DNA of 62,916 nucleotides from an uncultured Actinomycetales bacterium. Lineage in GTDB: Bacteria; Actinomycetota; Actinomycetes; S36-B12. The stretch lies in contig CAJXYI010000008.1 of the NCBI GenBank assembly GCA_913063435.1, forward strand, positions 1 to 62,916, in the 5' to 3' direction. Each line of letters starts with the position of its first letter. Within the stretch, counting starts at the first letter, position 1. Made by a program: the position numbers and the translations under genes. Shown here one piece after another: positions 16,486 to 49,515 of this stretch. Under the pieces are notes generated by a model. That model had not been told where the DNA came from, did not search any database, and saw nothing but the letters and a program-made list of their open reading frames with translations.

Positions 16486-16498
16486 CGTCGAGTGTTCC

Positions 16499-17302: not shown

Positions 17303-17328
17303 GGCCACTCCGATCTGTAGGTGGTGAA

Positions 17329-20789: not shown

Positions 20790-22247
20790 TCAGTCGCGGC
20801 GGAGCGTGACGTCGAGGTCGCCTCGCTGATATTTGACGTACTTCGACGCGGTCGAGGACATCAGATCGCGGGCCAAGGTGGCGGCTGGCGAATCGGGATA
20901 GAGCAACTCGGCCTTGGTGGGACCGGCCGCGTACATGGCATCGACATCGGGCCCGGGAATGAGATAGCGCAGTAGGAGTTCCTCGTCGCTCATCGTCTCG
21001 CCGAACTGGTGGCGGATCTCGGCCAAAGAGGGCTGAGGAGGCTCCCAATCGAGGAATTCCTTGCCGCGCTTGCTGCCGAAGGCCCGATCCTTGACCTCTT
21101 GTTCAACAGGTCCGGGGATCGGTCCCATGTGTCCGGCGAGGTACATGAGGTTCTCGTCGGGGAAGACCGTGTAACGCTCTTCGTTGACGAGGTTGAGCAG
21201 TGCCTGGATACCGACGAGTTGTGAATATGGAGTCGCCATGATCGGGTAGCCCATCTCTTCTCGGACGACGCCGATCTCTTCCATCAGTTCTTCGTAGCGG
21301 TCTTCCATGCCGTACTGCTTCAACTGGTTGATCAAGGTTCCGGTCATTCCGCCGGGTAGTTGGGCGTGAGAGTGGGCGAGGTTGTACTCCCGTGGCACAC
21401 CGATCGTGTACCCCTCGGCCTCGGCGATGCGCAGGAAATGCTCGCTGATTCCGGGGACGAGGCTCTCATCGAGATTGACGTCGAACCCGAGTCGGCGCAT
21501 GTTGTCTGCGGTGACCGTCACCGATGGCATCGATGGTCCATTCGCCATGGGGCCCATTGCCGTATGCAGGATGTGCACGCCGGCGTTCGCGGCAGTGATG
21601 TAGTTCAGCGTGGAGATGCCCGTGGTGTTGTGAAAGTGCGCTTCCAGCGGAACGCCCCCAGCGGCATCGACCATTCGGGGCACCCACGTCGTTGCACGTT
21701 CGGCAGTAAGGACACCGGCCTCATCACCCAAGATGATGGACTCGGTACCCCAGGTGGACATCTCGGCAACTATTGCCGCGTAGTAGTCGTCGGTGTGGAC
21801 GGGGGACTCGGCGAACATCACCTGGGGTGCCGCGTGCATCCCGGCATCCTGAGCGATGCCCGACATCCACTTCATCTCCTCCAGGTTGAACAGGCAGTCG
21901 AAGATCCAGAAACTCCCGATTCCATGCTTGGCCAGGGTGCGCACCCATAGTTCGAGGATGGAGCGGGGCGTGAGACCCATGCCGACGATCGCGTTGGCCC
22001 GCGCCCCGGCGCGCAGTCGCGAGTTCGGCATCGCGGCATGGACCAGATCCACCATCTCCCAGGGGTTTTCCTGGCAGTACCGCACGAGCACTTCGAATAA
22101 CGATGACCCGGTCAGATCGACGACGTGGTAGCCGATGCGGTCGATATCGGATGCGACGGGAACGCTGTGGCCGGCGCGCATCCGCATGCCCCAGAGGCTT
22201 TGCTGTCCATCCCGGATGGACTGGTCGATGAACTTTATCTCGGTCAC
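20790..22247 (-). CDS. Pyruvate-carboxylase/OadA-type carboxyltransferase, atypical
   Basis: This 485-residue protein matches the HMGL-like TIM barrel plus PYC_OADA domain. Residues 6-19 (FIDQSIRDGQQSLW) align with the metal and substrate motif of oxaloacetate decarboxylase alpha and pyruvate carboxylase, and a PGGM segment with flanking helices closes the C-terminal domain. His204 and His206 keep the HxH metal pair. The lysine that is carbamylated in pyruvate carboxylase (SICIKD) is replaced by Gly174 (SIILGD). Biotin carboxylase and carrier genes lie just upstream and a ligase downstream. A 2-oxo acid or a simple ketone is the likely acceptor. It could instead be a lyase. A paralogue is at 27971-29431. 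Confidence 0.85.
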   Translation of the reverse strand: MTEIKFIDQSIRDGQQSLWGMRMRAGHSVPVASDIDRIGYHVVDLTGSSLFEVLVRYCQENPWEMVDLVHAAMPNSRLRAGARANAIVGMGLTPRSILELWVRTLAKHGIGSFWIFDCLFNLEEMKWMSGIAQDAGMHAAPQVMFAESPVHTDDYYAAIVAEMSTWGTESIILGDEAGVLTAERATTWVPRMVDAAGGVPLEAHFHNTTGISTLNYITAANAGVHILHTAMGPMANGPSMPSVTVTADNMRRLGFDVNLDESLVPGISEHFLRIAEAEGYTIGVPREYNLAHSHAQLPGGMTGTLINQLKQYGMEDRYEELMEEIGVVREEMGYPIMATPYSQLVGIQALLNLVNEERYTVFPDENLMYLAGHMGPIPGPVEQEVKDRAFGSKRGKEFLDWEPPQPSLAEIRHQFGETMSDEELLLRYLIPGPDVDAMYAAGPTKAELLYPDSPAATLARDLMSSTASKYVKYQRGDLDVTLRRD

Positions 22248-22292: not shown

Positions 22293-23663
22293 TCAGGTGG
22301 TCCTCGGTGACCAGTCGGGTAGGAAGTCCTGCTCGACCCACCGCGTGTGGTGTTCGCCGGCTACGAAGGCGGGGTTGGCGATGACATCGAGCAGGAATTG
22401 CCGATTCGTCTGCACTCCGTCGACGACGAGATGGCTCAGCGCGCGGTCCATCGCCGCCAGGGCCGCGTCGCGGTCAGCGCCGTGCGTAATGACCTTGGCG
22501 ATCATGGAGTCGTAGTAAGGCGGGATGAGATAGCCGCCGAACACGTGGCTGTCGACTCTCACATCGGCACCCACCGGTGGAATCCAGCGGGTAACCCGTC
22601 CGGGCGAGGGCAGGAAATCCACGGCCGGGTCCTCAGCGTTCAGCCGGCATTCCACCGCGTGTCCATCGAGATGGACATCCTCTTGACGGAAAGACAGGGG
22701 AAGGCCACCTGCGATGCGCAGTTGCTCGCGGACGATGTCGATGCCGGTGAGCATTTCCGTCACCGGATGCTCCACTTGGACCCGAGTGTTGACTTCGAGG
22801 AAGGCGAAGTCGCCGGTGATGGCATCGACGATGAACTCCACGGTGGCTGCACCGACGTAATCCAGGCCTCGCGCGAGATCGAGCGCTGCGGAGTGCAGCC
22901 GGGCACGAATATCGGCAGGAACGAATGAGGCCGGTGCCTCCTCGACGACTTTCTGATATCGCCGCTGGGCGGTGCAGTCGCGTTCACCGAGGTGAACGGT
23001 ATTTCCGTGGGTATCGGCGAGGATCTGGACCTCGACATGGCGGGCACGTGAGACGAATCGCTCGACGTACAGTCGCCCGTCCCCGAAAGCCTGTAGTGCT
23101 TCGTGGCTTGCGGAGGAGAAGCGATCTCGCAGGTCGCTGGCTTGTTCGACGAGGACCATTCCGCGCCCTCCTCCACCTGCGGCAGCCTTCAGGAGGACGG
23201 GGAATCCGACGGTCGTGGCAACTCGCTCGGCTTCGTCGACATCGGTGAGAGCATCGCTACCGGCTCCCGTGGGGACGTCGAGGTTTCGTGCGAGCGACCG
23301 GGCCTCGACCTTGTCACCGCCGCGGCGGATGGCATCGGCTGACGGTCCGATGAACACGATGCCGTTCTGTGTGCAGGCCTCGGCCAGATCGGCGCGCTCA
23401 GCGAGGAATCCATAACCGGGATGCAGCCCGTCGCAGCCGGTGAGCGTCGCAGCGGCCAGGATGCGGTCGATGTCCAAGTAGCTCTCTGGTGAGGGCCCCG
23501 GACCGATGCAGACCACTCGGTCGGCGAGTTCGGCGGCCATACTGTCTCGGTCTGCGTCGGAGACGACGGCGACACTTTCGATGCCTTCGTCGATGCAGGC
23601 CCGGATGATCCGGACGGCGATCTCGCCCCGGTTGGCGACGAGGACGCGGCGCAGCGGCGCCAT
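22293..23663 (-). CDS. Biotin carboxylase
   Basis: This 456-residue protein has the AccC-type domains in order: VLVANRGEIAVR at the N terminus, the ATP-grasp loop AAGGGGRGM, GERDCTAQRRYQKVVEE, and EVNTRVQVEHPVTEM. It carboxylates carrier-bound biotin with ATP and bicarbonate. It is a free-standing subunit lying only 3 nt after the carrier gene and 45 nt before the carboxyltransferase. The gene set therefore forms a three-subunit biotin enzyme. I leave the symbol empty because the complex is unlikely to be the housekeeping acetyl-CoA carboxylase. Confidence 0.95.
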   Translation of the reverse strand: MAPLRRVLVANRGEIAVRIIRACIDEGIESVAVVSDADRDSMAAELADRVVCIGPGPSPESYLDIDRILAAATLTGCDGLHPGYGFLAERADLAEACTQNGIVFIGPSADAIRRGGDKVEARSLARNLDVPTGAGSDALTDVDEAERVATTVGFPVLLKAAAGGGGRGMVLVEQASDLRDRFSSASHEALQAFGDGRLYVERFVSRARHVEVQILADTHGNTVHLGERDCTAQRRYQKVVEEAPASFVPADIRARLHSAALDLARGLDYVGAATVEFIVDAITGDFAFLEVNTRVQVEHPVTEMLTGIDIVREQLRIAGGLPLSFRQEDVHLDGHAVECRLNAEDPAVDFLPSPGRVTRWIPPVGADVRVDSHVFGGYLIPPYYDSMIAKVITHGADRDAALAAMDRALSHLVVDGVQTNRQFLLDVIANPAFVAGEHHTRWVEQDFLPDWSPRTT

Positions 23664-23666
23664 GGT

Positions 23667-24182
23667 CTATTCCCCCGGTTCGATGACGACGAGAGGGGCG
23701 CCGAACTCGACCATCGCACCGTTATCGACGTTGATCGCCACGACAGTGCCGGCGACACCGGCTTTGACGTGATTCATCAACTTCATGACCTCGACGATGC
23801 ACACGGTGTCCTCGGGCCCGACCTGCTGACCCACCTCGACGAACGGCGGCGCACCCGGTTGGGGTGAGCGCCAGAACAGTCCCAGGGACGGAGAGGTCAC
23901 CCGATGACCATCGGGCAGATTCGTTGCCGGACCGCCCGTGGGAGCTGCTGCGGGCGTTGGTGTCGCAGCGTCGATGCTCGCCGGAGCGGAAGGGGTCGCT
24001 GCTGCGGGGGCACTGACGGGGGCCGGTGCGGGCGCTGGAGCGGGCGCGGCACTTGCCTGGGGAGCCCGGCCGTTACGGGACAGATCGAGGCGTGTGTCCC
24101 CGTACTGAAGGGACATTTCATCCCAATCGGACCCTTCGAAGGCGCTCACGAGAGCCCTGATGTCTTCTGGGGTGAGTGACAC
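23667..24182 (-). CDS. Biotin carboxyl carrier protein
   Basis: This 171-residue AccB-like protein has an N-terminal helical segment (SLTPEDIRALVSAFEGSDWDEM), a long Ala/Pro linker, and a biotinyl domain with Lys134 in EVMKLMNHV (the usual AMKM varies to VMKL). The GTG at 24182 is chosen because GGAGGGAG precedes it and the family start aligns; a 45-residue extension is open but unlike the family. It heads the minus-strand operon and is divergent from the GntR gene. Confidence 0.93.
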   Translation of the reverse strand: MSLTPEDIRALVSAFEGSDWDEMSLQYGDTRLDLSRNGRAPQASAAPAPAPAPAPVSAPAAATPSAPASIDAATPTPAAAPTGGPATNLPDGHRVTSPSLGLFWRSPQPGAPPFVEVGQQVGPEDTVCIVEVMKLMNHVKAGVAGTVVAINVDNGAMVEFGAPLVVIEPGE

Positions 24183-24271
24183 TTTGGCCTGTCTCCCTCC
24201 GGCCGGTGGGCCTGGTCGGTTCCGTCCCTCCCGGGACGATGATGTGGATGACCTCCGGGAATCGCGCCCAG

Positions 24272-24282
24272 ACATCATATGT
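24272..24282. promoter_or_regulatory. Putative operator ACATCATATGT
   Basis: This 11-nt imperfect palindrome sits between the divergent carrier and GntR genes. Close relatives occur at 31233-31243 (ACATCCGATGT) and 38529-38539 (TCATCCGATGT), each in an intergenic region of the catabolic block. It is a candidate site for the GntR regulator, which would then control both divergent operons and itself. Confidence 0.45.
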
Positions 24283-24378
24283 TTGTGGCAGAGTAGCGCC
24301 CGTGCTGCTGATCGCACAGCAGAATGCGAGAAGATTCCTCCACAACCTGCCGAAGGGGCAGCCTAGTGAAGGGGGTCT

Positions 24379-25172: not shown

Positions 25173-26402
25173 GTGACCCATTCGTTCATTAATGGTGTCG
25201 GCATGACCCGGTTTGGTCGGCATCCCGACGAGACGGTGTCCAGTCTCGCGCTCTCCGCATGCCGTGACGCGCTGATCGACGCCCAGGTGGATCCCCGTGA
25301 GATAGATGCGGTGGTATTCGGCAACGCGACCTGGGGTGCGATGGGCGGTCAGCATGGGATTCGGGGACAACTCGCTCTTCAGAATCTGGGATTGCGCCCG
25401 GTGCCGATCATCAACGTCGAGAACGCTTGCTGCAGCGCTACGACGGCCCTGCAGGTGGCTACGGCCTATGTGAAGGGTGGACTTGCCGAGACGGTGCTCG
25501 CCGTTGGTTCCGAGGTGATGAGCCAGGCGGGCTTACCCGAATTGCTCGCCGCTTTCGAAGGCAGTTGGGACGTCGCGGGGCGCGAGCAATCGATCGAACG
25601 CCTTGCCGATTGGGGATCGAAGACCCCTGTTCCCCCGGATGCGGTCGAACTTGCCAGTCGCACGGTCTTCATGGACATCTACGCGGCCTTCGCCCGCGAT
25701 CATATGGCTCGATTCGGCAGTACCCCCGAGCAGTTCGCGGCGGTCAGCTCGAAGAACCACATGCATTCGGTGCACAATCCACGTGCTCAGTTCCAGAAGC
25801 CGTTCACGGTCAACGAGGTTCTCGAAGGCAGGGCCGTCGTGTGGCCGCTCACCGTGCCGATGTGTTCACCCGTGAGCGACGGTGCTGCTGCAGCTGTTGT
25901 CTCAGCCAAGGCCGTGGACAAGTCGCGTGCCGTGCGAATACTGGCGCAGCGCATTGGGCATGGCGGCTCCTGGGACGGCGTCGATCCGCGAGGCCACGTC
26001 AGTCATCAGACGGGGCTGCTGTCCTTCGCCGATGCCGGTGTGGATCCGGGGGACATCGACGTTGCCGAAGTGCACGATGCCACTGCCGTGGGTGAGGTCC
26101 AGCAGGTCGAGCACATGGGGTTGGTCCCCTACGGTGAAGGAGGCCTTGCTGCAGTGCGCGGTGAGACGGCACTCGGTGGCCGAATTCCGGTGAACCCGTC
26201 GGGTGGCTTGGAATCGCGGGGTCACCCGATCGGTGCGACCGGCCTGGCCCAGGTGTTCGAGTTGGTCAACCAACTGCGCGGGGAGGCCGGTGCGCGACAG
26301 GTGGACGGTGCTCGCCTGGCCCTGGCAGAGAATAGTGGTGGCCTGGTCGGTGTCGAGGAAGCAGCGGTCGCGGTGACCATTCTGGAGGCCCCAGCGCGAT
26401 GA
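25173..26402 (+). CDS. Thiolase-like protein, SCP-x type
   Basis: This 409-residue protein belongs to the thiolase superfamily branch of SCP-x/lipid-transfer thiolases. The nucleophile lies in NVENACCSAT (Cys86 or Cys87), GHPIGATG is near the C terminus, and the end NSGGLVGVEEAAVAV departs from the classical CxG motif. Such enzymes cleave branched or steroid-like beta-ketoacyl-CoAs in known examples. It begins the forward operon after the GntR gene, and its stop overlaps the start of the AMP ligase. Confidence 0.88.
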   Translation: MTHSFINGVGMTRFGRHPDETVSSLALSACRDALIDAQVDPREIDAVVFGNATWGAMGGQHGIRGQLALQNLGLRPVPIINVENACCSATTALQVATAYVKGGLAETVLAVGSEVMSQAGLPELLAAFEGSWDVAGREQSIERLADWGSKTPVPPDAVELASRTVFMDIYAAFARDHMARFGSTPEQFAAVSSKNHMHSVHNPRAQFQKPFTVNEVLEGRAVVWPLTVPMCSPVSDGAAAAVVSAKAVDKSRAVRILAQRIGHGGSWDGVDPRGHVSHQTGLLSFADAGVDPGDIDVAEVHDATAVGEVQQVEHMGLVPYGEGGLAAVRGETALGGRIPVNPSGGLESRGHPIGATGLAQVFELVNQLRGEAGARQVDGARLALAENSGGLVGVEEAAVAVTILEAPAR

Positions 26403-27925
26403 ATCTCGCCTGGACCCTGGCGGCTAGTGCTGCCGCTCATGCGTCGCGGCCTGCCATCGTCGTCGATGACACGGTCGAAAGCGACTACGCGCTCCTGCTC
26501 GATCGCGTGTCCCGACGGGCAGGTGACCTCGTTGTGCAGGGAGTCCGCCCGGGTGATCGAGTCGCCCTCTACCTCACTAATCGGCCGGACTATCTCGAGG
26601 CGCTCTACGCGATCTGGTGGTGCGGTGCTGTCGCTGTTCCCTTGAGTAGCATGCTGCACCCGCAGGAAGCCGCTGACCTCATTCTCGATAGTTCGGCGGA
26701 GCTGTGCTGGGTCTCCCCTGACCTTGCGGGGGGAATCGTCGATCATCCTGCGGTGTCGGGAAGGATTCGGGTTGTCGATGACGCGGAACTGATCCGAGCC
26801 CGCAGGGCAGAGTCGATCGCGTGCATTGATCGGGCTTCAGGTGATGACGCCTGGATCTTCTACACCTCGGGGACGACGGGTAAGCCCAAGGGAGCCAGAC
26901 TCTCGCACGGCAACCTCTGGGCGATGTCGGTTGCCTACTGCGCTGATGTCGAGTGGGTCGATGCCGATTCCGGGCTCCTCCATGTTGCCTTGCAGAGCCA
27001 TGCCTCCGGCCTGTTCGCCCTCCCCTTCATCGCTCGGGGAGGTGCCCAAGTCGTGCCGACCAGTACCGATGCCGATCACGTAGCACGGCTCTTGGGGACG
27101 CGCTCCGGTCTCACCTTCTTCGCGCCGCCGATCCTGCTGCGTCGATTGGCGGACTCCCCGGTTCTGTCGTCGACGCCGGTGGAGCGAATGGGAACCGTGC
27201 TCGTCGGAGCTGCTCCCGTTCACGCCGATGATCTGCGCCGTGGCATGGCGGCCTTCGGTCCCCGCATCTGGAATGGCTACGGCCAGGGGGAGAGCCCCCT
27301 CACCATCACCGCGATGGGACCGAAGGCGATGGCCGCCGCAGAGGCTGCCGGGGATGAGGAAGCACTCGTGTCGGTCGGCATCCCTCGGATCGGAACCCGG
27401 GTCCGCGTCGTCGATGAGCAGGACCGACCGATGCCGGATGGTGAGATCGGCGAGGTCGTCGTGTCAGGTCCGACCGTCATGGCCGGGTATCTCGATCGAC
27501 CTGAAGCTACCGCCGAAACGCTCCGTGGGGGTTGGTTGCACACGGGAGATCTCGGTCGCTTCGATCGCGGATTGCTGACCCTCCTCGATCGAAGCAAGGA
27601 CATGGTCATCACCGGTGGAGCCAATGTGTATCCACGTGAGATCGAAGAAGCCCTGCGCGGCCACGAATCGGTCACCGATATCGCCGTCATAGGTCTTCCG
27701 GATCCCGAATGGGGGGAACGGGTCGTTGCCTTCGTCGTCCCCGCGCGCGAGACATCCATCCGTGAGATGAGCACGTCACTCGACGCCTATTGCCTGGAGA
27801 ACATGGCGCGCTATAAGCGCCCGAAGGAGTACCACCTCATCTCTGATCTACCTCGCAACGGAGCTGGGAAAGTCCTCAAAACCGAATTACGACGACGGCT
27901 CTTGGACGCCCCTGATCGACGCTGA
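26399..27925 (+). CDS. AMP-forming acyl-CoA synthetase
   Basis: This 508-residue ANL ligase has the P-loop YTSGTTGKPKG, NGYGQGES, TGDLGRFD and the C-terminal NGAGKVLK lysine. It starts at an ATG overlapping the thiolase stop. It is a paralogue of the ligase at 19265-20749 but distinct in sequence. Its pairing with a thiolase and a carboxyltransferase repeats the layout of the minus-strand operon. Confidence 0.92.
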   Translation: MNLAWTLAASAAAHASRPAIVVDDTVESDYALLLDRVSRRAGDLVVQGVRPGDRVALYLTNRPDYLEALYAIWWCGAVAVPLSSMLHPQEAADLILDSSAELCWVSPDLAGGIVDHPAVSGRIRVVDDAELIRARRAESIACIDRASGDDAWIFYTSGTTGKPKGARLSHGNLWAMSVAYCADVEWVDADSGLLHVALQSHASGLFALPFIARGGAQVVPTSTDADHVARLLGTRSGLTFFAPPILLRRLADSPVLSSTPVERMGTVLVGAAPVHADDLRRGMAAFGPRIWNGYGQGESPLTITAMGPKAMAAAEAAGDEEALVSVGIPRIGTRVRVVDEQDRPMPDGEIGEVVVSGPTVMAGYLDRPEATAETLRGGWLHTGDLGRFDRGLLTLLDRSKDMVITGGANVYPREIEEALRGHESVTDIAVIGLPDPEWGERVVAFVVPARETSIREMSTSLDAYCLENMARYKRPKEYHLISDLPRNGAGKVLKTELRRRLLDAPDRR

Positions 27926-27970
27926 ACGCACCTCCTAGGACACCGGACAACCGCTACAGATGGAGTGATC

Positions 27971-29431
27971 GTGCCGCACCTGAACTTCCTGGATGAGACC
28001 CTCCGTGATGGACAGCAGAGTCTGTGGGGCATGCGCATGCAAGCCGCGCACGCGCTGCCGATCGCGAACATCCTCGATCGGACTGGTTTCAGTCGGATCG
28101 ACCTCGCAGCTTCTTCCTTCATGGAAGTCCTCATCAAGTTCTGCCGCGAAGATCCCTGGGAGGGCCTCGACTTGATTCAAGCGCAGATCACCCGTACTCC
28201 GACCCGGGGTGGGATGCGCTCGAATGCCGCGGTGAGCATGGGGATCACCCCCCCGGACCTCATGGATGCCTGGATGAGGCAACTCAATCGCCATGGCGTG
28301 CGGTCGTACTGGATATACGACACCCTCTACAACTTCCATCACATCGATCGCCTCTCCCGGGTAGCCAAGGAGTTCGGCTCAGAGATCGCCGGGACGGTGT
28401 TCTTCACCGAGTCGCCGGTCCACACCGACGATCTGTTCGCCGAGCAGGTTCGCCAGATGGCCGCGATCGAAGGTGTCGACACGATCTTGTTCTATGACAC
28501 TGCAGGTGTGCTGCTTCCCGACCGCATTCGCACCCTCGTGCCGCGGATCGTCGAGGCTGCCGGTGGCAAGCCCATCGAGATGCACTCGAACAATCTGATG
28601 GGCACCTCGACGCTGGCGTACTGCGAAGCGATCCAGCACGGTGTGACGACCATCCACACCGCGAGCCGCCCGATGGCCAACGGGCCCTCCACACCATCGA
28701 CGGAGGTGATGGTTCGAAACGCCGAGATTCTTGGTTTCTCCCATTCCCTCGACACCAGTCTTTTCGCGCCAGTCGCCGAACACATGGAACGGGTGGGCAA
28801 AGCGATGGGATACCTGGTCAACCAGCACGCCGAATACGACCTGTCGAACGTCGCACACCAGGTTCCCGGAGGGATGACCGGGACGCTGAAGGCCCAACTT
28901 GCTCAGTACGGCATGTCCCACCGACTGGACGAGGTGTTCCAGGAGGCAGGGCGCGTGCGGCGAGAACTGGGCTACCCGATCATGGCGACACCGGTGAGCC
29001 AATTGGTGGGAATCCAGGCGGTCTTGAACGTCGTCACCGGTGACCGATACTCCGTGGTACCGACGGAGAACCTGATGTACGCCGCGGGCTTCTATGGCAA
29101 CCCGCCAGCTCCGATCGACCCGGATGCGATGGATCGGATGACAGCGAATTCGCGCTGGCAGGAAGTCGTGGACAATCCGCCGGAGTCGCCGAGCATCGAG
29201 GAACTTCGCAAGGCCTACGGCACTGATGACGACGATGAACTCATCCTGCGTTTCCTCGTCCCGGAACCCGACCTTGAAGCGATGCGCGCGGCCGGCCCGG
29301 TCAAGCGCGATTTCCCGCTGGCTTCCGACGAGGTTCAGCAGGTGCAGGCGCTTATTCGCGCGGTCAACTCACCGTATTTCCGATTATCGACGGAGAAGTT
29401 CGACGTCTCCCTCGCAAAGCAAGGCGAATGA
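27971..29431 (+). CDS. Divergent carboxyltransferase-like (HMGL/PYC-type) protein
   Basis: This 486-residue paralogue of the protein at 20790-22247 starts at the GTG at 27971, because GGAG lies 5 nt upstream and the first 20 residues then align column by column with the paralogue. The N-terminal motif FLDETLRDGQQSLW is kept, as is the PGGM C-terminal domain. The HxH metal pair has become His205-x-Asn207 and the carbamyl-lysine position is Tyr175 (TILFYD). It has no biotin carboxylase beside it. It may share the divergent carboxylase, or may have lost carboxyl transfer and act as a lyase or on phosphorylated intermediates. Confidence 0.82.
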   Translation: MPHLNFLDETLRDGQQSLWGMRMQAAHALPIANILDRTGFSRIDLAASSFMEVLIKFCREDPWEGLDLIQAQITRTPTRGGMRSNAAVSMGITPPDLMDAWMRQLNRHGVRSYWIYDTLYNFHHIDRLSRVAKEFGSEIAGTVFFTESPVHTDDLFAEQVRQMAAIEGVDTILFYDTAGVLLPDRIRTLVPRIVEAAGGKPIEMHSNNLMGTSTLAYCEAIQHGVTTIHTASRPMANGPSTPSTEVMVRNAEILGFSHSLDTSLFAPVAEHMERVGKAMGYLVNQHAEYDLSNVAHQVPGGMTGTLKAQLAQYGMSHRLDEVFQEAGRVRRELGYPIMATPVSQLVGIQAVLNVVTGDRYSVVPTENLMYAAGFYGNPPAPIDPDAMDRMTANSRWQEVVDNPPESPSIEELRKAYGTDDDDELILRFLVPEPDLEAMRAAGPVKRDFPLASDEVQQVQALIRAVNSPYFRLSTEKFDVSLAKQGE

Positions 29432-31518: not shown

Positions 31519-32217
31519 ATGAGCGAGCCCAATATCCTCAGCGACAAGTGGGGAAAGCCGGCGATGAGCGAGGTGCTCGAGTACTACCACTCGTCCATCC
31601 GCGCACTCGTCGCCGAGAAGTTCGCAGCATCAGGAAAGACCTGGCAGGAAGCAGTAAACGATCCTGCGTTGGAGTTGACCCGCGAGGACTTCCAGAAGAT
31701 CGAGGACGACTTCCTCGCGACCGGATACCGGTTCACCATGTCGGCCCAGGTGTCGATCGTGGAGGAACCGGAGAAGTACCAGCCCATCGCGGGCGTCGGT
31801 GACTCCGGAAGCCAGCCCAAGGACGAGCAGGGACGACTCATCGTCGGGACCGGCGATAACGTGTTCCAAGCCGAAGACCTCGAGGGCACCGCACGTTTCG
31901 TCGGGACGGTGGAAACCGTCATGGACATGCTGATGAATGGCGTGCCGGAAGGCACGATCGCGATCATCGACGACTCGGGCGGCACGTTGACCGCACCGAT
32001 TCTCGAAGGATTCGCCGGTGTGGTCTGCATGGGTGGCACGATCCGATCCCATTTGGGCATCCTCACCCGCGAATACGACATCCCGTGCCTGATGGCTGCG
32101 GAACTCGATGGTCTCTCCGACGGCGATCGCATCGTCGTCGAGTACTCCAAGCCCGCCACGGACGCCTACGCAGAACGAGATGACGCTGCGCGCGCCCGCA
32201 TCGTGAAGGTCTCCTGA
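31519..32217 (+). CDS. Free-standing phosphohistidine swivel-domain protein (PEP-synthase-like)
   Basis: This 232-residue protein begins at the ATG at 31519 after AGGAGG. The C-terminal half is a PEP-utilising-enzyme mobile domain: GGTIRSHLGILTREYDIP has His178 at the place of the phosphorylated histidine of PEP synthase and PPDK (GGRTCHAA in E. coli PpsA), with one extra residue in the motif. The usual Thr/Ser before His is Arg-Ser. The N-terminal 120 residues are not recognised. No ATP-grasp or PEP barrel is attached, so it must take phosphate from another protein. The next gene follows after 17 nt. The nearest analogy is the split phenylphosphate synthase of Thauera. Confidence 0.8.
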   Translation: MSEPNILSDKWGKPAMSEVLEYYHSSIRALVAEKFAASGKTWQEAVNDPALELTREDFQKIEDDFLATGYRFTMSAQVSIVEEPEKYQPIAGVGDSGSQPKDEQGRLIVGTGDNVFQAEDLEGTARFVGTVETVMDMLMNGVPEGTIAIIDDSGGTLTAPILEGFAGVVCMGGTIRSHLGILTREYDIPCLMAAELDGLSDGDRIVVEYSKPATDAYAERDDAARARIVKVS

Positions 32218-32234
32218 GGAGGAACGACGACACT

Positions 32235-33785
32235 ATGCCTGCGAACATTTCCTATAACGAACTGCAGGATCTAAATCAGTTCCTGCAGAAGTCCAGTGAC
32301 GTCTTCTATTTCCAGTGCACGACTCGAACGGTTCAGGAGTCCAAGCTCTTCCCCGTCAATCCCTATATCGCACTGTCGTACTACAACTGCTGGTACCGGT
32401 ACCCGGAGATCTTCCGCAAGATCGAAGAGGTGATGACACCCGAGGAGCTCGGTGACCGTGCTCGCGAGGTGTCCATGTCGGCGAACGCCATCATGCTGGG
32501 AATCATCCAGCAGTTCTATCTCGGTGGTCGCCAGTTCCTCATTGACATGGGAATGATCAACCCCACCGATGGAATCGATGACATCAAGTACGTCCTCGAC
32601 TTTGCCCAGCGGGTCAATCGGTCCTACCACCGGCAGAGTGGTTACACCTTGAATAGCGACATGAACCACCGCGCTCAGTTGCTGCCCGAGCGCACCCTGC
32701 AGGTCTTCGAGGCAGACGCCCTCGGGTGCAAGCCTGGAGATAAATTGCACAACGCGGTGGTGAAGTTCCTCGCGACCGCATCGCAGTACGCGTTCTTGAA
32801 GAACGCCGAGTGCCGTCTGGGCATCCACAACTCCGGTCCGTACAAGGTCGGTGACAAGGAGATGCTCATTCGTGACTTCGTCGATCTCAGCGAAGGCGAT
32901 TACCCTTGGCTGGACGGTGTCGCCAGCGGGATCGAGTACAACAACGTGACGCTCCCGGTCATCATGAAGGACACCCACTTCCACATGGTCGACGACTGGG
33001 GTTCCTTCGAAGCGACCCCGTCCTACGACCACGACAACATGGTCGCAGTCGGTCTGTACACGTCGGACTATCTGTCCAATGGGTACATCCCGGTGCACAT
33101 GGACAACGCCAGCGAGTTGGCCGACTACCTCGATCACATGCGCGATCAGATGCAGACGGCTACCTCCGAATTGTGGAAGCGGATGGCGGGCTGGACACGG
33201 GATCAGATGATCGACGCGGGACTGCTGGTGTACTACGCCGTGCCCAAGGACCTTGCCCACATCGCCGGGGTCTACGACCCGAACGACTGGATGATGGTCG
33301 ATGAGCGAGTGCAGCGTCTCAAGCCATTCTTCAACGACGAATACGGCGGTGCGGCGATCGCCGAACTCGTGGGCTACATCTCCTTGAGCTCCCAGCAGGA
33401 GAGCCCCTACACCATGAGCAAGTATTCGAATGCGAGCTCGGATATGTGGTCCAAGATCCCGTATTCGGTCCTTGCCGATGACAATTTCACCTCCCACGTT
33501 CCCCCGATGGGGCCGGGAAGCACGTCCCTGCCGCCGAAGACCGGCAAGTACACGACGACCCGGGGGAGGCTGACTCTCGAGGAAGCCAATGCCCTCGCGC
33601 GCGGGTTCACTCCCGAGACCTTGCAGGGGGCGAATCGTTTCTACGACGACCAGTGGGTCAAGTACAACGCGGGAACCCCTGCAGCCGATGCGCTGTACAA
33701 GGCGACCCAGCAGAACTCCTTCCAGCTGAAGGACAAGGGCTCGACGCTCACCGCCGAGGACGTCGAGAAGTTGCGCCGCTGGTAA
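32235..33785 (+). CDS. Unrecognised 516-residue protein, likely substrate subunit of the phosphotransfer system
   Basis: I do not recognise the family. The protein is soluble with no signal peptide or membrane segment. It is rich in aromatic, Asp and His residues (for example MKDTHFHMVDDWG and SYDHDNMV in the middle), and a C-terminal block RLTLEEANALARGF precedes a lysine-rich tail. A strong GAGGAGGA site precedes the ATG, 17 nt after the swivel-domain gene, and a terminator hairpin follows, so the two form a bicistronic unit. By analogy with phenylphosphate synthase it may hold the acceptor substrate for phosphate from His178 of its partner. Codon use looks fully native. A similar-length antisense frame is only a shadow. 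Confidence 0.75.
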   Translation: MPANISYNELQDLNQFLQKSSDVFYFQCTTRTVQESKLFPVNPYIALSYYNCWYRYPEIFRKIEEVMTPEELGDRAREVSMSANAIMLGIIQQFYLGGRQFLIDMGMINPTDGIDDIKYVLDFAQRVNRSYHRQSGYTLNSDMNHRAQLLPERTLQVFEADALGCKPGDKLHNAVVKFLATASQYAFLKNAECRLGIHNSGPYKVGDKEMLIRDFVDLSEGDYPWLDGVASGIEYNNVTLPVIMKDTHFHMVDDWGSFEATPSYDHDNMVAVGLYTSDYLSNGYIPVHMDNASELADYLDHMRDQMQTATSELWKRMAGWTRDQMIDAGLLVYYAVPKDLAHIAGVYDPNDWMMVDERVQRLKPFFNDEYGGAAIAELVGYISLSSQQESPYTMSKYSNASSDMWSKIPYSVLADDNFTSHVPPMGPGSTSLPPKTGKYTTTRGRLTLEEANALARGFTPETLQGANRFYDDQWVKYNAGTPAADALYKATQQNSFQLKDKGSTLTAEDVEKLRRW

Positions 33786-33803
33786 CAGCGTCGTGATGGC
33801 GAC

Positions 33804-33833
33804 GGGAGGGGTCCTGGATCCAGGGCCTCTCCC
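33804..33833 (+). terminator. Terminator hairpin after the swivel operon
   Basis: A 14-bp stem with two mismatches (GGGAGGGGTCCTGG paired with CCAGGGCCTCTCCC) and a 2-nt loop is followed by GTTTCCT. It lies 18 nt after the 516-residue gene and before a convergent amidase. Confidence 0.7.
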
Positions 33834-33876
33834 GTTTCCTATCTGCGGCCGGCTCGGCTGGGAGTCCCCAGAGTGA

Positions 33877-35283
33877 TCAGTGCTGCAGGACCGACGGGGA
33901 CCACATGGGGAATCCAGCAGCTGACTCATAGGTTCGACTGGCACGCATCACGAGTCGATCCTCGAAGTGGCGTCCCACGATCTGCATCGCCATGGGCAGG
34001 CCGTCATCGGTGAGTCCGACCGGAACCGATGCTGCCGGGCAGCGGGACAGATTGTGGGGGTAGGTGAAGGGAGTCCACTGCGTCCAATGGTCTTGGACCT
34101 CGGAATCCCACACATCGGTCCCGACGGGAAGGGCGACCGTGGGCATCTGCGGCGAGATGAGCAGATCATAGGAATCGAAGACCCTGGTCAGGGCTTGGGC
34201 GAGGCGCAAGCGTGATCCCTCGGCGACGAGATAATCGTGTGCGGTGAGCTTCCGGCCGCGGTCCAAGGTGGCGACGAGTCCGGGGTCGCTGTCGCCGAGT
34301 CGCTGCTCGGGAACATCCCACAGCGCCATGGAGAGCATGCCGTCCCAGATGGTGCAGAAGTCCTCTCGCGGGTCATCGAACGGGGCATCGATGACATCGA
34401 TGATCGCCCCGGCATCACCGAGTACGCGAACAGCGCGTTCGACTGCTGCAGCGATGCGTGGATCGACCTGCGCGTATCCATAGTCGGGCGAGTAGGCGAT
34501 GCGCACCCCGTTGACGCCGCGTTCCACATCGCTCACCCAGGGTCGGGGATCATCGGGAACCGGATATACCTCGCGGGGATCGGATCGGGCGATGACCTCC
34601 ATCATGGCGGCGGCGTCGGTCACGGTTCGGGTCATCGGGCCTACGTGGGACAGGGTGCCGCCCGTCGAGGGTGGATAGATCGGGACGAGGGAGAACGTGG
34701 GCTTGAGGCCGAAGATCCCGCAGAAGGCGGCGGGCATCCGGACTGATCCTCCACCGTCGGTTCCCGTCGCCACGACAGTCATGCCCGTGGCCACCGCTGC
34801 GGCCGAGCCTGCGGAAGAGCCACCGGTGGTGCGATCGATGTTCCATGGGTTGCGAGTGATTCCGGTGAGCGGCGAATCCCCGACGCCTTTCCACCCGAAC
34901 TCCGGCGTCGTCGACTTGCCGAGGAAGACTGCACCGGATTCCCTCATGCGTGCTGCCGCGGGAGCATCCTCGGTGGAGATCTTGTCGGGATCGGTCTGCC
35001 GTGAACCCTTGCGAGTGGGCCAGCCCTTGAATGCCATCGTGTCCTTGATCACGCTGGGAATTCCATCGAGTGGACCAAGGGTGCGTTGCGCTTGCCAGCG
35101 CTGTTCGCTCTCTCGTGCCAGTCGACGTGCAGTGTCTGCATCGACTCCAACGAAGGCGTTCAGTTCCGGGTCGAGGGCTTCGATCCGCGCGAGGCAGGAG
35201 TCGACGACCTCGACAGGGGAGAGGTCGCGATTAGCGTAGGACTGCTGCAAGGAGACGATGCTGAATTCGGTGGGGTCGGTCAT
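33877..35283 (-). CDS. Amidase-signature family hydrolase
   Basis: This 468-residue protein has the amidase signature: the catalytic Lys in SVIKDTMAF, the cis-Ser/Ser nucleophile region GGSSAGSAAAVATG, and GTDGGGSVRMPA. It hydrolyses an amide or related C-N bond of unknown substrate. The ATG at 35283 starts the family-typical MTDPTEFS N terminus; the open frame upstream is an artefact. It is the last gene of a minus-strand group including the HAD and PPDK-like genes. Confidence 0.9.
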   Translation of the reverse strand: MTDPTEFSIVSLQQSYANRDLSPVEVVDSCLARIEALDPELNAFVGVDADTARRLARESEQRWQAQRTLGPLDGIPSVIKDTMAFKGWPTRKGSRQTDPDKISTEDAPAAARMRESGAVFLGKSTTPEFGWKGVGDSPLTGITRNPWNIDRTTGGSSAGSAAAVATGMTVVATGTDGGGSVRMPAAFCGIFGLKPTFSLVPIYPPSTGGTLSHVGPMTRTVTDAAAMMEVIARSDPREVYPVPDDPRPWVSDVERGVNGVRIAYSPDYGYAQVDPRIAAAVERAVRVLGDAGAIIDVIDAPFDDPREDFCTIWDGMLSMALWDVPEQRLGDSDPGLVATLDRGRKLTAHDYLVAEGSRLRLAQALTRVFDSYDLLISPQMPTVALPVGTDVWDSEVQDHWTQWTPFTYPHNLSRCPAASVPVGLTDDGLPMAMQIVGRHFEDRLVMRASRTYESAAGFPMWSPSVLQH

Positions 35284-35386
35284 AATGGGGCGCCTCCGGG
35301 AGTCGGGTCTTGCACGGTGCGAGCGATCGGTGAGCGATGGGCCATGCCATCCGGCTGCGGCAGAAGCACGAGTCAATCGGGTGTCG

Positions 35387-36016
35387 TCAGGACCATCCCA
35401 GTGCGGTCGTGATGCGATCGATGCGCTGTGGATCGTGGGGATCGCAGTGCACCGCCCGCAGTCCGTAGCTTTGCGCCGCGGCGACGTTCGGGTATTCGTC
35501 ATCGACGTAGACCACTTCGTGTGGTTCGAGCTCGATCAGTTCCAACACGTGCACGAAGATCTCCCGATCAGGTTTGCGCATGCCGACATCGCCGCTGATC
35601 ACGACGGCATCGAATGCTTCCTGCCAGTTCCGACGGTCGTAGGAGTCGCCCCAGGAATTCGACAGCAGCCCGGTTCGCAGGCCTTGGCTGCGGGCACTCG
35701 TCATCAGCGCGATCATGTCGGGGTTGGTCCGGATGGGTGCGAACATCCGCTCGAAGATCCCTCGGGGCTCAGGGCGAGGACCGTGTTCGGCGAAGACATC
35801 GGCGATCCATGGCTCGATGTCCTCTCGCGTGAGTTCCCCCCTCTCAAGTTGCTGGAGGGGGTTGTGTTCACCGGTGATGTGGCGGGTGAGCGAAGCCATG
35901 ACCCCCGCGGGATCCAGCCCCTCCTGCTCGGCGAAGTCGGCCATGCATTCGCGGAGAGGCTGCGTGACGACGCCGCCCCAGTCGACGACCAGACCCCGTG
36001 GTGGTGGCACCTGCAT
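35387..36016 (-). CDS. HAD-superfamily hydrolase
   Basis: This 209-residue protein has a variant HAD motif I, VVDWGGVV, where the second Asp of DxD is replaced (Asp-Trp-Gly), and motif II/III elements such as LLSNSW, GMRKPDREIF and YVDDEYPN. This arrangement occurs in HAD proteins of the epoxide-hydrolase N-domain and haloacid-dehalogenase subgroup as well as in phosphatases. It lies 8 nt after the PPDK-like gene, so it could act on a phosphorylated product. The specificity is unknown. Confidence 0.82.
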   Translation of the reverse strand: MQVPPPRGLVVDWGGVVTQPLRECMADFAEQEGLDPAGVMASLTRHITGEHNPLQQLERGELTREDIEPWIADVFAEHGPRPEPRGIFERMFAPIRTNPDMIALMTSARSQGLRTGLLSNSWGDSYDRRNWQEAFDAVVISGDVGMRKPDREIFVHVLELIELEPHEVVYVDDEYPNVAAAQSYGLRAVHCDPHDPQRIDRITTALGWS

Positions 36017-36024
36017 GGGCTATT

Positions 36025-37797
36025 TCACTCCTTTGTCGCCTGCAGCACTCTCAGCTGCAACGGGAGGGGAGGATCTGCGATGACGAGGCTGGTTCCCGAA
36101 GCCAGCAGCGCCCGTACGCCCTCGGTGGTGTTGAGCACCGAGCCTCGCACCGGAAGTGCATTGGCAAGGAGTGCCTGGGTGACGGCCTCCTGATCGACCC
36201 GCCCGGTCTCAGGATCGACACCGATCCGTTCGACGTCGAGGTCGAGGATGTCGCTGTCGTGCTGGGCGACGATGTCGATGGGGCAATGCTCGCTCGCCCA
36301 GGCGGCTAGCGGACTGAGCGCGGGATGGTCTTCGATTGTCGTGGCTTGGAGGGGAAGGGCCCCCTGATACACCCGACCAGCGGCCCCATCGACCGTCAGG
36401 AGTTGGCCCTCGAGGCCTTCGGCCACGCCATCGCCGACGCCCACGACGCTGGGACGGCCCAGGGCACGGGTGACGACGGCGGCGTGCGATGTCGATCCAC
36501 CCAGATCGGTCACGACGGCTACCGCGGCGATCATGCCGTGGACATCGTTGGGGCTGGTGGTGGGTCGAACCAGGACGATGTCCTCGCCCGCGTGGGCGCG
36601 CCGCTCGGCCTCATCGGGATCGACGACACCGATCCCGATAGCGATGCCAGGACAGGCGGCTTCGCCGACGGCCACGGGAGTTGCATCGATCAACGCCTCG
36701 GGGGCCAACGTGGGCAGGAGCACGGAGGCGACCTGCTCGGGAGTCACCCTCATCACCGCGGTGGCCGAATCGATGAACCCCTCGCTGACCAGGTCGGTGG
36801 CGATGCGGACAGCAGCATCAGGTGAGCGCTTAGCGGTGCGGGTCTGCAGCAGGTACAGCGTTCCCGCCTCGACGGTGAACTCGACATCCTGCACCTCGCG
36901 GTGCTCGTCCTCGAGGGTTTTGGCCCAGGTGAGCAATTCCTCGTGCACGGTTGGCATCGCCGCCTCGAGGGCGGATAGGTCGAGGACCGCGTGCGTTCCA
37001 CCGACGACATCGTCACCCTGGCCCCCGGGAAGCCACTCGCCATAGGGGGTGGCTTCACCGTTGAGCGGATTGCGAGTGAAGAGGACGCCGGTACCCGATT
37101 CATCGCCCAGATTGCCGAACACCATGGCCTGCACGGTCACAGCAGTTCCGCCTTCATCGGAGATGCCCCAATGCTTGCGATAGCTGCGTGCGCGAGCGGA
37201 TGTCCACGAATCGAATACGGCGCTGATGGCGGCGCGCAACTGAGAGTAAGGATCCTCAGGGATGGACTCACCGACATCCTCGAGGACGAGGGCTCGCATG
37301 TCCGCAGCAGTGGAACCGCTCGCATAGGGGTCGAGATGTGCCTTCAACACGACGTCGCCGAATTGATGGCAGAAGCGAGCGTGGGTATCCCGGGCGTAGA
37401 TTGCATCACCGGTGATGTGTGCGAGGCCGTGCTCGACCTCATCGGTGATTCCGAGGTTGAGCACCGTATCCATCATCCCCGGCATGCTTATGGCAGCTCC
37501 CGATCGGACAGACACCAGGAGCGGTGAGTGTGGGTCCCCGAAGCGACGTCCGGTGGCTGACTCGATGGATCGGACGCCGTCCATCACCGAGTCCCAGAGA
37601 TCATCGTCGATCGTTTTGCCGGCTTCGTGGTATCGAATGCATTCCGAGATGGGGATGACGAAGGCTGGGGGAACCCGCAACCCGAGGCCGGTCATACGCG
37701 CGATGCTCCAGGCCTTGCCGCCGATGAGTTCGCGACCGGGCAACGATGTGCCGTCGAGGACGATGATGCGATCTGCCTGCTGCGTTGTCGATGTCAT
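36025..37797 (-). CDS. PPDK-like phosphotransferase lacking the PEP/pyruvate barrel
   Basis: This 590-residue protein has the N-terminal nucleotide-binding domain of pyruvate phosphate dikinase (GGKAWSIARM at the start, SVRSG with Arg98, GTGVLFTRNPLNGE, the LLQTR loop) and a swivel domain with His438 in GGSTSHAAVV. Classical PPDK has about 880 residues. Here the C-terminal PEP-binding barrel is missing and only some 90 unrelated residues follow the swivel domain. Shortened ppdK genes are known in mycobacteria. The ATG at 37797 follows AGGAG. It may phosphorylate its own histidine with ATP and pass phosphate to a separate acceptor. A 205-residue gene lies 4 nt upstream. Confidence 0.85.
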   Translation of the reverse strand: MTSTTQQADRIIVLDGTSLPGRELIGGKAWSIARMTGLGLRVPPAFVIPISECIRYHEAGKTIDDDLWDSVMDGVRSIESATGRRFGDPHSPLLVSVRSGAAISMPGMMDTVLNLGITDEVEHGLAHITGDAIYARDTHARFCHQFGDVVLKAHLDPYASGSTAADMRALVLEDVGESIPEDPYSQLRAAISAVFDSWTSARARSYRKHWGISDEGGTAVTVQAMVFGNLGDESGTGVLFTRNPLNGEATPYGEWLPGGQGDDVVGGTHAVLDLSALEAAMPTVHEELLTWAKTLEDEHREVQDVEFTVEAGTLYLLQTRTAKRSPDAAVRIATDLVSEGFIDSATAVMRVTPEQVASVLLPTLAPEALIDATPVAVGEAACPGIAIGIGVVDPDEAERRAHAGEDIVLVRPTTSPNDVHGMIAAVAVVTDLGGSTSHAAVVTRALGRPSVVGVGDGVAEGLEGQLLTVDGAAGRVYQGALPLQATTIEDHPALSPLAAWASEHCPIDIVAQHDSDILDLDVERIGVDPETGRVDQEAVTQALLANALPVRGSVLNTTEGVRALLASGTSLVIADPPLPLQLRVLQATKE

Positions 37798-37801
37798 CAG
37801 T

Positions 37802-38419
37802 TCACTCCTGACGCGTGCGGCCGAGCATACGGAGCAGGTCTTCATGCAACTCGAACCACACCGTGTGGTAGCTGTCGATGCGCACGCCGCTCACGTAGTC
37901 GATGTCGCCGGCCAGCACCTTGTCGTAGGCCTCCTCCAACCGCTCGAGGTGGCGTCGAAGGCGTGGCTGGGCATCGGCACATGCCCCGACGACACGCTCG
38001 GCACGCTCATGCAGCCGGCCCAGGCGATCGATGATGCCGCGGTCGTAATCGGCGTCGCTGTGGTCATTGGGGACTCTTTGCCCGCCAGCGTCCATCGTCT
38101 GCCAGTCGGTGAAGAGAGCGAGCAATTCGGTATTGACCTTCTCGAATCTCTCGTAGGCAGCGGTCAATTCGCCGTCCTCTCGAGCCTCCGCGTAGACAAC
38201 CGGGTACTGCTCGATGAGCCAGGCCTGTCCAGCCGGGGCGACCATGTACGTTCCCTTCGCACCGGCGGCACGTCCTTCGGCGACGGCAGCGTCGAGAGCC
38301 GCCGCGATCTGGGCTTCGTCTGCACCTAGTAGCGAAGCCACCGTGGCGGGGCTACCGGCCTTGCGGACTGCGAGCCCGTGTAAGGCGAGGAATTCCACGG
38401 GGACATCGGGATCGGACAT
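37802..38419 (-). CDS. PPDK-associated protein with N-terminal winged-helix-like segment
   Basis: This 205-residue protein is not a member of a family I can name. The first 75 residues (LALHGLAVRKAGSPATVASLLGADEAQIAAAL) look like a winged helix, and the rest is helical and charged, with coiled-coil character around RLGRLHERAERVV. It lies 4 nt before the PPDK-like gene, in the same operon. It may regulate the kinase, or be a structural subunit replacing the missing domain. A putative operator is at 38529-38539 upstream. Confidence 0.75.
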   Translation of the reverse strand: MSDPDVPVEFLALHGLAVRKAGSPATVASLLGADEAQIAAALDAAVAEGRAAGAKGTYMVAPAGQAWLIEQYPVVYAEAREDGELTAAYERFEKVNTELLALFTDWQTMDAGGQRVPNDHSDADYDRGIIDRLGRLHERAERVVGACADAQPRLRRHLERLEEAYDKVLAGDIDYVSGVRIDSYHTVWFELHEDLLRMLGRTRQE

Positions 38420-47085: not shown

Positions 47086-47266
47086 GGGGTCATCGCACCA
47101 TATTCGTCAGATCTCTGGTGCCTGAATGGGACAGTTCAAGGCCATCCGCTTGTAAATCTCCTCATGCGAGTCTGTGCATTTCCATTGCAGACCCCATGCT
47201 GCGCGGCATATGGTCCGATCAATTGCACGAAGATTTTCGTGTCGTCCCGGACCTGAGGAGGTCGCT

Positions 47267-48771: not shown

Positions 48772-49515
48772 GTGACCGATGCTCAACAGGCAACGGCCCA
48801 GGGCCTTGTCAATCTGCGCGACCTGGGTGGCCTCCCCCTCACCGGTGGAGGCCGAACCCGGGCCGGGGTGCTCTTCCGCAGCGAATCGCTGCAGGAAGCC
48901 ACCGATGCGGACTCCGAGTTGCTGCTGCGGGAGTTCCGCCTGGGAGCCGTCTTGGACCTGCGTTCGGCGCGGGAGACAGTGTCCGAGGGCCGGGGACCGT
49001 TGGCCAGCGCTTCAGTTTCCTACCTGAACATCCCGCTGAATCCGGCGCCGGTTGACCTGGCCACCTCGTCGGACATGCGGCCCGGGGAATTGACGGCACA
49101 GGTGTATCGGGCCTTCGCGGATGATCCAGAAGGGGGACTGCCGAAGGTCTTCCGACTCCTTCCCGAATTAATGGCCGCACCCACCCTGATCCACTGCGCG
49201 GCAGGCAAGGATCGCACGGGACTCGTCGTTGCCATGACTTTAGAGATCGCCGGAGTCACCCGTGATGCGGTGATCGCCGATTACCTCGTTTCACAGGTCA
49301 ACAACCACCGGGTGAACGAGATGCTGTCTCGCTCACCGAGATACCGCGCTCATATGACCAAGGTTCACCCGGAGTTCTACGAGGTCCACGAATTCGCCAT
49401 CACCGAATATCTCCAATCCCTGGATCGCGACTTCGGGGGTGTGCGCGGGTGGGCACAGAGTGCGGGAATCGGCGACGAATACATGGACAGGATCAGCGAC
49501 CACCTGCGTGGATAG
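48772..49515 (+). CDS. Tyrosine/serine phosphatase-like protein (Y_phosphatase3 type)
   Basis: This 247-residue protein has LVNLRDLGGLPL at the N terminus, LFRSESL, and the loop HCAAGKDRTG with Cys142 and Arg148. It is a clearer family member than the one at 15021-15758, since the NxRDLGG motif is intact. The GTG start at 48772 is followed by normal codon use. It is followed after 15 nt by a CurA-like reductase. Metabolic rather than signalling dephosphorylation is possible given its neighbours. Confidence 0.87.
   Translation: MTDAQQATAQGLVNLRDLGGLPLTGGGRTRAGVLFRSESLQEATDADSELLLREFRLGAVLDLRSARETVSEGRGPLASASVSYLNIPLNPAPVDLATSSDMRPGELTAQVYRAFADDPEGGLPKVFRLLPELMAAPTLIHCAAGKDRTGLVVAMTLEIAGVTRDAVIADYLVSQVNNHRVNEMLSRSPRYRAHMTKVHPEFYEVHEFAITEYLQSLDRDFGGVRGWAQSAGIGDEYMDRISDHLRG

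Follow-up and report, generated by a model that had tools for sequence, protein, structure and literature searches.

What does a free-standing phosphohistidine carrier do beside a 516-residue protein that could not be recognised? The question is raised by contig CAJXYI010000008.1 of an uncultured Actinomycetales bacterium, a freshwater actinobacterium, of which we analysed the whole stretch of 62,916 nucleotides (the window). Four proteins are encoded together there: a swivel protein (P0001), the 516-residue protein P516 (P0002), a kinase resembling pyruvate phosphate dikinase (PPDK; P0003) and a 205-residue protein, P205 (P0004). We suggest, with a probability of roughly 60%, that together they make up a single small-molecule dikinase, driven by ATP and divided over four proteins, which in the clade of this bacterium would phosphorylate a (hydroxy)ketone before biotin-dependent carboxylation. 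A first-pass annotation of the window had named the free swivel with His178, the unrecognised protein beside it and, about 2.2 kb away, the PPDK-like kinase without its phosphoenolpyruvate (PEP) barrel. These three parts were all found as described, but P205, which lies in the same interval, had been overlooked as a fourth subunit.

The core genes have full-length relatives in other Nanopelagicales genomes at 72-90% identity (65-72% for the kinase) and are therefore real genes, not chance open reading frames (ORFs). In the related Nanopelagicales contigs (the near loci; in the following, L-numbers denote loci and G-numbers the genomes compared), the gene order is kept as far as each contig extends. 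It begins with a carboxyltransferase (CT1), a biotin carboxylase (BC) and a biotin carboxyl carrier protein (BCCP), continues with FadR, thiolase, acyl-CoA synthetase and a second carboxyltransferase (CT2), then a short-chain dehydrogenase/reductase (SDR), swivel-P516 and, further on, PPDK-P205. The kinase pair stays near swivel-P516 in these contigs despite being on the opposite strand. The genes that separate P516 from the kinase, for an amidase and a HAD protein, have no counterpart in L005, L006 and L007, and for this reason were set aside as parts of the pathway. The record of L007 is titled Bifidobacterium breve; its P516 is nearly identical to that of L006, a Nanopelagicales contig, and the title looks like that of a mislabelled metagenome-assembled genome.

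The window swivel carries the mobile domain of PEP-utilising enzymes (PF00391, E 2.8e-6), which includes His178, and His178, Ser177 and Arg184 were invariant in 50 of 50 relatives. Its motif reads G-T-x-x-S-H-x-G-I, compared to G-G-x-T-S-H-A in dikinases of the HpeHI/CreHI/PpsAB type. When the co-occurrence of the genes was mapped, the swivel gene adjoined P516 in 41 of the 43 loci, in 38 of them immediately upstream. Both remaining loci begin at a contig end, and the adjacency holds in every resolvable locus, down to about 21% identity. In Rhodococcus opacus B4, swivel, P516 and P205 are fused into one protein of 793 residues, and in R. pyridinivorans swivel and P516 form a single protein of 577 residues. 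Gene runs on one strand were found in G557 (swivel-P516-P205-PPDK; L075) and in G136 (P516-swivel-P205-PPDK). G557 also bears four tandem swivel-P516 pairs on one 12.6-kb contig (C425; L054, 1-7914) and has eight P516 matches genome-wide. Because of the conserved adjacency, the operons, the gene fusion and the loss of the PEP barrel, it is well supported by the sequences that the four proteins form one system. The earlier proposal of a split system like PEP synthase or PPDK, in which the unrecognised subunit works with the swivel, stands on the same grounds. One could still suppose that P516 has a catabolic function unrelated to the swivel, and that the two genes are simply inherited side by side. 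However, such constant adjacency at so low an identity, as well as fusion with both swivel and P205, makes this very improbable.

The kinase consists of PPDK_N (PF01326) and a swivel domain with no PEP-binding barrel, and scored as a PPDK (PRK05878, E 1.4e-208; 693.8 bits, compared to 111 bits for PEP synthase). Its ATP-site residues K28, R98, D304, E306, Q318 and R320 were invariant in 11 P516-linked kinases, and so was His438 (numbered from the 590-residue start; the protein has 606 residues if started at the upstream ATG at 37845). The six ATP-site residues presumably correspond to K22, R92, D321, E323, Q335 and R337 of the C. symbiosum PPDK. The PEP barrel is absent from the short P516-linked kinases; in the three kinases that retain it (L016, L075 and L099) it is degenerate, with the GTNDLTQ and CGE motifs lost. 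The kinases of L016 and L075 adjoin P516, and that of L099 is an additional copy, in a genome that carries P516. Housekeeping PPDKs, used as controls, keep both motifs, including the canonical PPDK of the window's own genome (G000:C15). The presence of PPDK counted genome-wide gave no discrimination, as nearly all genomes carry the housekeeping enzyme. Because the P516-linked kinases kept the ATP site while their barrel was lost or became degenerate, the simplest reading of the sequences is that P516 would have taken over the acceptor role of the barrel domain. It might be argued instead that pyruvate or PEP is bound by P516 as a new kind of subunit and that the four proteins together are a conventional PPDK or PEP synthase, since the kinase is closest to PPDK. 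However, the same genome already has a canonical enzyme with intact motifs, and P516 genes occur in catabolic, often plasmid-borne clusters with up to eight copies per genome. We consider this explanation extremely improbable.

Judged by profile searches, P516 is a new, widespread family without a database description. No Pfam or NCBIfam family matched the window protein or five distant members, the P516 profile had no match in PDB, and no known enzyme unrelated to phosphotransfer emerged. Weak ferritin matches in PDB (E 0.11) were disregarded. In comparisons of profiles, P516 showed no similarity to acceptors like that of rifampin phosphotransferase (RPH) and their RIF-binding domain, to the PEP barrel or to the degenerate barrel. 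Its hhalign probability against PRK08296, a family of the PpsA/CreH type, was 0.1; positive controls scored 98.5-99.9, with 99.9 for RPH-like proteins against PRK08296. That PRK08296 is of this type was borne out by clusters in Azoarcus (phenylphosphate synthase) and Rhodococcus (P450-linked), and the synthase from a phenylphosphate cluster is among its best relatives on plasmids. Phenylphosphate synthase had been cited at first as a known split version, but the P516 system is not such an enzyme: the acceptor has no detectable homology, and the kinase is of the PPDK type with its own swivel. A description of P516 was not found in the literature within reach of the search, which left out most subscription journals.

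Within the family, Arg99, Arg194, Gly201, Pro202, Pro262 and Tyr333 were invariant in 50 of 50 relatives, and Arg213 and Trp225 were conserved in 49 of 50 sequences. Relatives at 25-30% identity were found by protein search in five other actinobacterial genomes, and a profile search detected P516 in 29 of 198 genomes of another actinobacterial class. It is rare within the bacterium's own class, with 6 of 297 genomes, and relatives are also carried on plasmids of Rhodococcus, Novosphingobium, Paraburkholderia and Methylibium. On the plasmid of Methylibium petroleiphilum PM1 (L087, 11890-14779), a P516-swivel-P205 set lies just upstream of a cluster of the methylmalonyl-CoA-mutase type, which we take to be the 2-hydroxyisobutyryl-CoA mutase region of methyl tert-butyl ether degradation.

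P205 likewise matched no family in Pfam or NCBIfam. Its AlphaFold2 (AF2) model (pLDDT 87.5) has a winged helix and a four-helix bundle, and no solved structure matched the whole protein. P205 adjoins the kinase in all near loci reaching that far, as well as in Rhodococcus, Novosphingobium, G136 and G557; antisense frames overlapping P516 were excluded from its profile search. We can only guess at a docking or regulatory role. Mycobacterium branderi, Diaphorobacter and Rhodococcus LW-XY12 (L102, 8190-12016; L101, 12098-15982; L103, 5717-11757) also have a truncated PPDK with a P205 relative, and in each case an RPH-like acceptor-swivel protein is their neighbour. In Streptomyces atratus (L104, 7264-10105), a P205 relative and a truncated PPDK lie by P450 genes and not far from a polyprenyl synthetase, and may belong to a terpenoid cluster.

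The proposed dikinase is linked to carboxylation by its gene neighbourhood. R. pyridinivorans P23 and R. oxybenzonivorans S2-17 both have one run of genes in the order swivel-P516-AMP ligase-P205-PPDK-BCCP-BC-CT-OB fold-thiolase-tyrosine phosphatase, and in Novosphingobium resinovorum SA1 the four parts are clustered with BCCP, BC, CT and thiolase in a different order. Among 119 genomes of the order, P516 and this type of carboxyltransferase (CT) each occurred in eight, of which seven were shared (Fisher p ~1e-9, without correction for relatedness and thus to be read as a strong association only). The carboxylase-linked P516s form one clade (support 100/100), in which both P516 and swivel proteins are longer. 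Another genome of the order, G598, combines five CT paralogues, at 42-45% identity to CT2, with four distant P516s located on different contigs. Four P516-linked CTs (LGD, FYD, LED and LYD), namely CT1 and CT2 of the window and the single CTs of Rhodococcus and Novosphingobium, lack the lysine that precedes the DxxG motif and serves pyruvate carboxylase as a metal ligand. It is kept in the Hpe-type CT of R. leguminosarum (VKD) and in two CTs of bisphenol plasmids (IKD). CT2 also has H-x-N instead of H-x-H.

A known pathway offers a close parallel. In the Hpe pathway of Rhodococcus rhodochrous GD02, acetovanillone and 4-hydroxyacetophenone are first phosphorylated by HpeHI, only the phosphorylated ketone is then carboxylated by HpeCBA, and HpeD strips the phosphate; a CoA synthetase and a hydrolase have been proposed for the later steps (PMC9618137). 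HpeHI, a dikinase of two parts, is a relative of rifampin phosphotransferase (PMC12167813), and the chemistry of HpeHI and HpeCBA has been established by experiment (PMC9618137, PMC12167813). A cluster of HpeHI-type kinase, carboxylase and HAD on a plasmid of Rhizobium leguminosarum BT01 is 36% (CT), 51% (BC) and 38% (BCCP) identical to the window proteins. On plasmids of S. bisphenolicum AO1 and P. putida YC-AE1 (L109, 4963-10348; L111, 5874-11356), a Tm-1-like ATP-binding protein takes the position of HpeHI and precedes BCCP-BC-CT-HAD in both. AO1 and YC-AE1 presumably degrade bisphenol A with 4-hydroxyacetophenone as an intermediate. Possibly the Tm-1-like protein serves this pathway as a kinase of a third kind. 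Because HpeHI and this protein each precede a homologous carboxylase, the P516 system appears to fill a slot that is open to different kinases. By this analogy, its arrangement mirrors the Hpe pathway (kinase, biotin carboxylase and phosphatase) with a non-homologous kinase.

From these parts we infer the following course. The PPDK-like kinase, aided by P205, would move phosphate from ATP to a histidine, which may be first that of the kinase, that of the swivel, or both; a relay from His438 to His178 is one option for the two swivels. The free swivel would then bring the phosphate on His178 to a substrate bound by P516, which stands in for the lost pyruvate/PEP barrel. In the window's clade the substrate is probably a (hydroxy)ketone. 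The phosphorylated product would be carboxylated by the linked biotin-dependent carboxylase, and dephosphorylation by a phosphatase of the protein tyrosine phosphatase (PTP) type, joining to CoA and cleavage by thiolase would follow as in the Hpe pathway. Phosphorylation of a (hydroxy)ketone before carboxylation is, by analogy, the most likely function.

It was first suggested that the enol of a ketone or phenol could be phosphorylated before carboxylation. The link to carboxylation of the ketone type was upheld, and the enol is possible, though not favoured, as Hpe uses the phenolic hydroxyl. Dikinases such as PPDK and PEP synthase can drive the formation of high-energy enol phosphates, and the same system could in this way place phosphate on the enol oxygen of a plain ketone and activate it for carboxylation. 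This precedent speaks for an enol. The window cluster, by ORF reading, is also rich in SDR, acyl-CoA dehydrogenase and thiolase genes, not in aromatic-ring genes, and CT is of the pyruvate-carboxylase type, working at the carbon beside the carbonyl. However, a biotin-dependent carboxylase needs no enol activation, the phosphate in Hpe sits on the phenol through carboxylation and is removed after it (PMC9618137), and the linked PTP phosphatase is more in keeping with a stable phosphate ester. The biotin dependence of the carboxylase and the linked phosphatase lead us to favour a hydroxyl as the probable site of phosphorylation, as in Hpe, and to regard the enol as a possible but rather unlikely site.

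Instead of a metabolite, the set might phosphorylate protein histidines, in a relay that controls the carboxylase or the catabolic enzymes. The winged helix of P205 resembles transcription regulators, and there is a precedent in VadK of M. tuberculosis, for which regulation of methylcitrate-cycle enzymes was proposed (PMC13400623). However, P516 and the swivel are enzyme-like in size and conservation and occur in fusions with P205, and P516s of the carboxylase-linked clade occupy the place of HpeHI in the Hpe pathway. The same donor pair also adjoins RPH-like acceptor-swivel proteins, whose characterised relatives act on small molecules. A regulatory relay is therefore improbable.

Several observations weigh against a dikinase of ketones in four parts. 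The window kinase and P205 are on the strand opposite to swivel-P516, and G544, a genome 97% complete, has P516 and swivel with no PPDK_N protein. The kinase already bears a swivel of its own, leaving the need for a second one unexplained. An AF2 model of P516 built from seven close sequences reached a pLDDT of only 32.5 and gave neither the fold nor a substrate site. In Caballeronia, a related CT stands without a neighbouring kinase. Most P516 relatives in the other actinobacterial class have no carboxylase nearby, and therefore carboxylation would be specific to one clade.

The coordinates are collected in Table 1. Three ORFs resembling the acetoacetate-decarboxylase family lie in the same catabolic island (15742-17308, minus strand; 47174-48049, plus strand).

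Table 1. Positions in the window of the four proposed parts, the linked carboxylase and the context genes.
Feature	Position	Strand	Basis
Free-standing swivel protein, 232 aa, proposed phospho-carrier His178, N-terminal extension of ~110 aa	31519..32217	+	PF00391
P516, 516 aa, proposed substrate-acceptor subunit, new family	32235..33785	+	Conserved residues, fusions
PPDK-like kinase, 590 aa, ATP-grasp and swivel (His438), PEP barrel missing	36025..37797	-	PF01326 and PF00391, PRK05878
P205, 205 aa, winged helix and four-helix bundle, kinase-associated partner	37802..38419	-	AF2 model, gene neighbourhood, fusion
CT1, pyruvate-carboxylase-type carboxyltransferase	20790..22247	-	PYC_OADA and HMGL-like; same type in an Hpe-type cluster
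BC, biotin carboxylase subunit	22293..23663	-	Conserved in L002, L003, L006, L007, Rhodococcus and Novosphingobium
BCCP, biotin carboxyl carrier protein	23667..24317	-	PF00364, TIGR00531 over cut-off
CT2, second carboxyltransferase paralogue	27965..29431	+	PYC_OADA; 57% identical to the single CT of the Novosphingobium cluster; co-occurs with P516
Tyrosine-phosphatase-family (PF13350) protein, candidate product phosphatase	15021..15758	+	38% identical to phosphatase of Rhodococcus P516 operons
Second PF13350 phosphatase	48772..49515	+	33-34% identical to Rhodococcus operon phosphatase
AMP-forming acyl-CoA synthetase, context gene	26399..27925	+	Sequence reading; 58-66% identical in L002, L003, L006 and L007
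Thiolase-family protein, context gene	25173..26402	+	Sequence reading; kept in near loci; 38% identical to Rhodococcus operon thiolase, 48% to Novosphingobium
AMP-forming acyl-CoA synthetase	19265..20749	-	54% identical to one inside the Rhodococcus operon

The P516 family, so far undescribed, is present in many actinobacteria as well as some proteobacteria, and its context, the fusions and the loss of the PEP barrel point to a concrete role that can be tested. If the proposal is true, P516 would be a third type of substrate domain in the PPDK/PEP-synthase/RPH superfamily, and the system would be a second dikinase route into the phosphorylation and subsequent carboxylation of ketones.

Compared to known systems, this is a variant of the small-molecule dikinases that is new in its acceptor family P516. 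The window kinase has all ATP-site residues and the swivel histidine of PPDK and PEP synthase; these enzymes, however, keep the PEP/pyruvate barrel that is deleted or degenerate in the P516-linked kinases. RPH has the same ATP-grasp, substrate and swivel parts by function, but in one polypeptide and with a substrate domain that has no detectable relation to P516. In HpeHI, CreHI, PpsAB and AcvAB, the ATP-grasp and swivel-histidine parts are on separate proteins, as in the P516 system (PMC12167813, PMC9618137). The invariant swivel histidine is common to HpeHI, CreHI, PpsAB and the P516 system, and Hpe-type clusters resemble the window in placing a dikinase with a phosphatase and a biotin-dependent carboxylase of the same type, whose BCCP, BC and PYC/OADA-type CT are homologous to those of the window. 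However, HpeH joins a RIF-binding domain and a swivel in one protein, whereas the P516 system has a free swivel and an acceptor without detectable homology. The ATP-grasp subunits of HpeHI, CreHI and PpsAB have no swivel and bear a PEP-synthase-like motif, in contrast to the PPDK-type window kinase with its own swivel. P205 is a fourth protein that HpeHI-type dikinases lack, and the linked phosphatase is of the PTP type instead of the HAD of Hpe-type clusters.

The acetone and acetophenone carboxylases, to which the system had been likened at first, proved a poor analogy. They are biotin-independent with subunits of the hydantoinase type, whereas the linked carboxylase here is composed of BC, BCCP and a CT of the pyruvate-carboxylase type. 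The 25-hydroxysteroid kinase also phosphorylates a substrate hydroxyl early in a catabolic pathway (PMC8449060), but it was rejected as a match: it is a single subunit related to the phosphotransferase family, with a ternary-complex mechanism and no phosphohistidine (PMC8449060).

VadK (Rv1127c) of M. tuberculosis, which autophosphorylates His422, is like the window kinase in that it has a PPDK-like ATP-grasp and a His domain, no pyruvate domain and a small encoded partner; this operonic partner, Rv1126c, raises the solubility of VadK (PMC13400623). The likeness of P0003/P0004 to VadK/Rv1126c is one of architecture. VadK has no known acceptor, whereas swivel and P516 are encoded alongside the window kinase. 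Because truncated PPDKs with P205 relatives adjoin RPH-like acceptor-swivel proteins, our results suggest that truncated PPDKs like VadK may be donor halves of small-molecule systems, which bears on what the phosphohistidine of VadK acts on in M. tuberculosis. In its widest form, which we offer as a doubtful speculation, P516 would be a new acceptor class with its own fold, and truncated PPDK and P205 would serve interchangeable swivel-acceptor pairs, like enzyme I and HPr in the phosphotransferase system (PTS), with one clade making ketone enol phosphates for biotin-dependent carboxylation and with VadK as the donor half.

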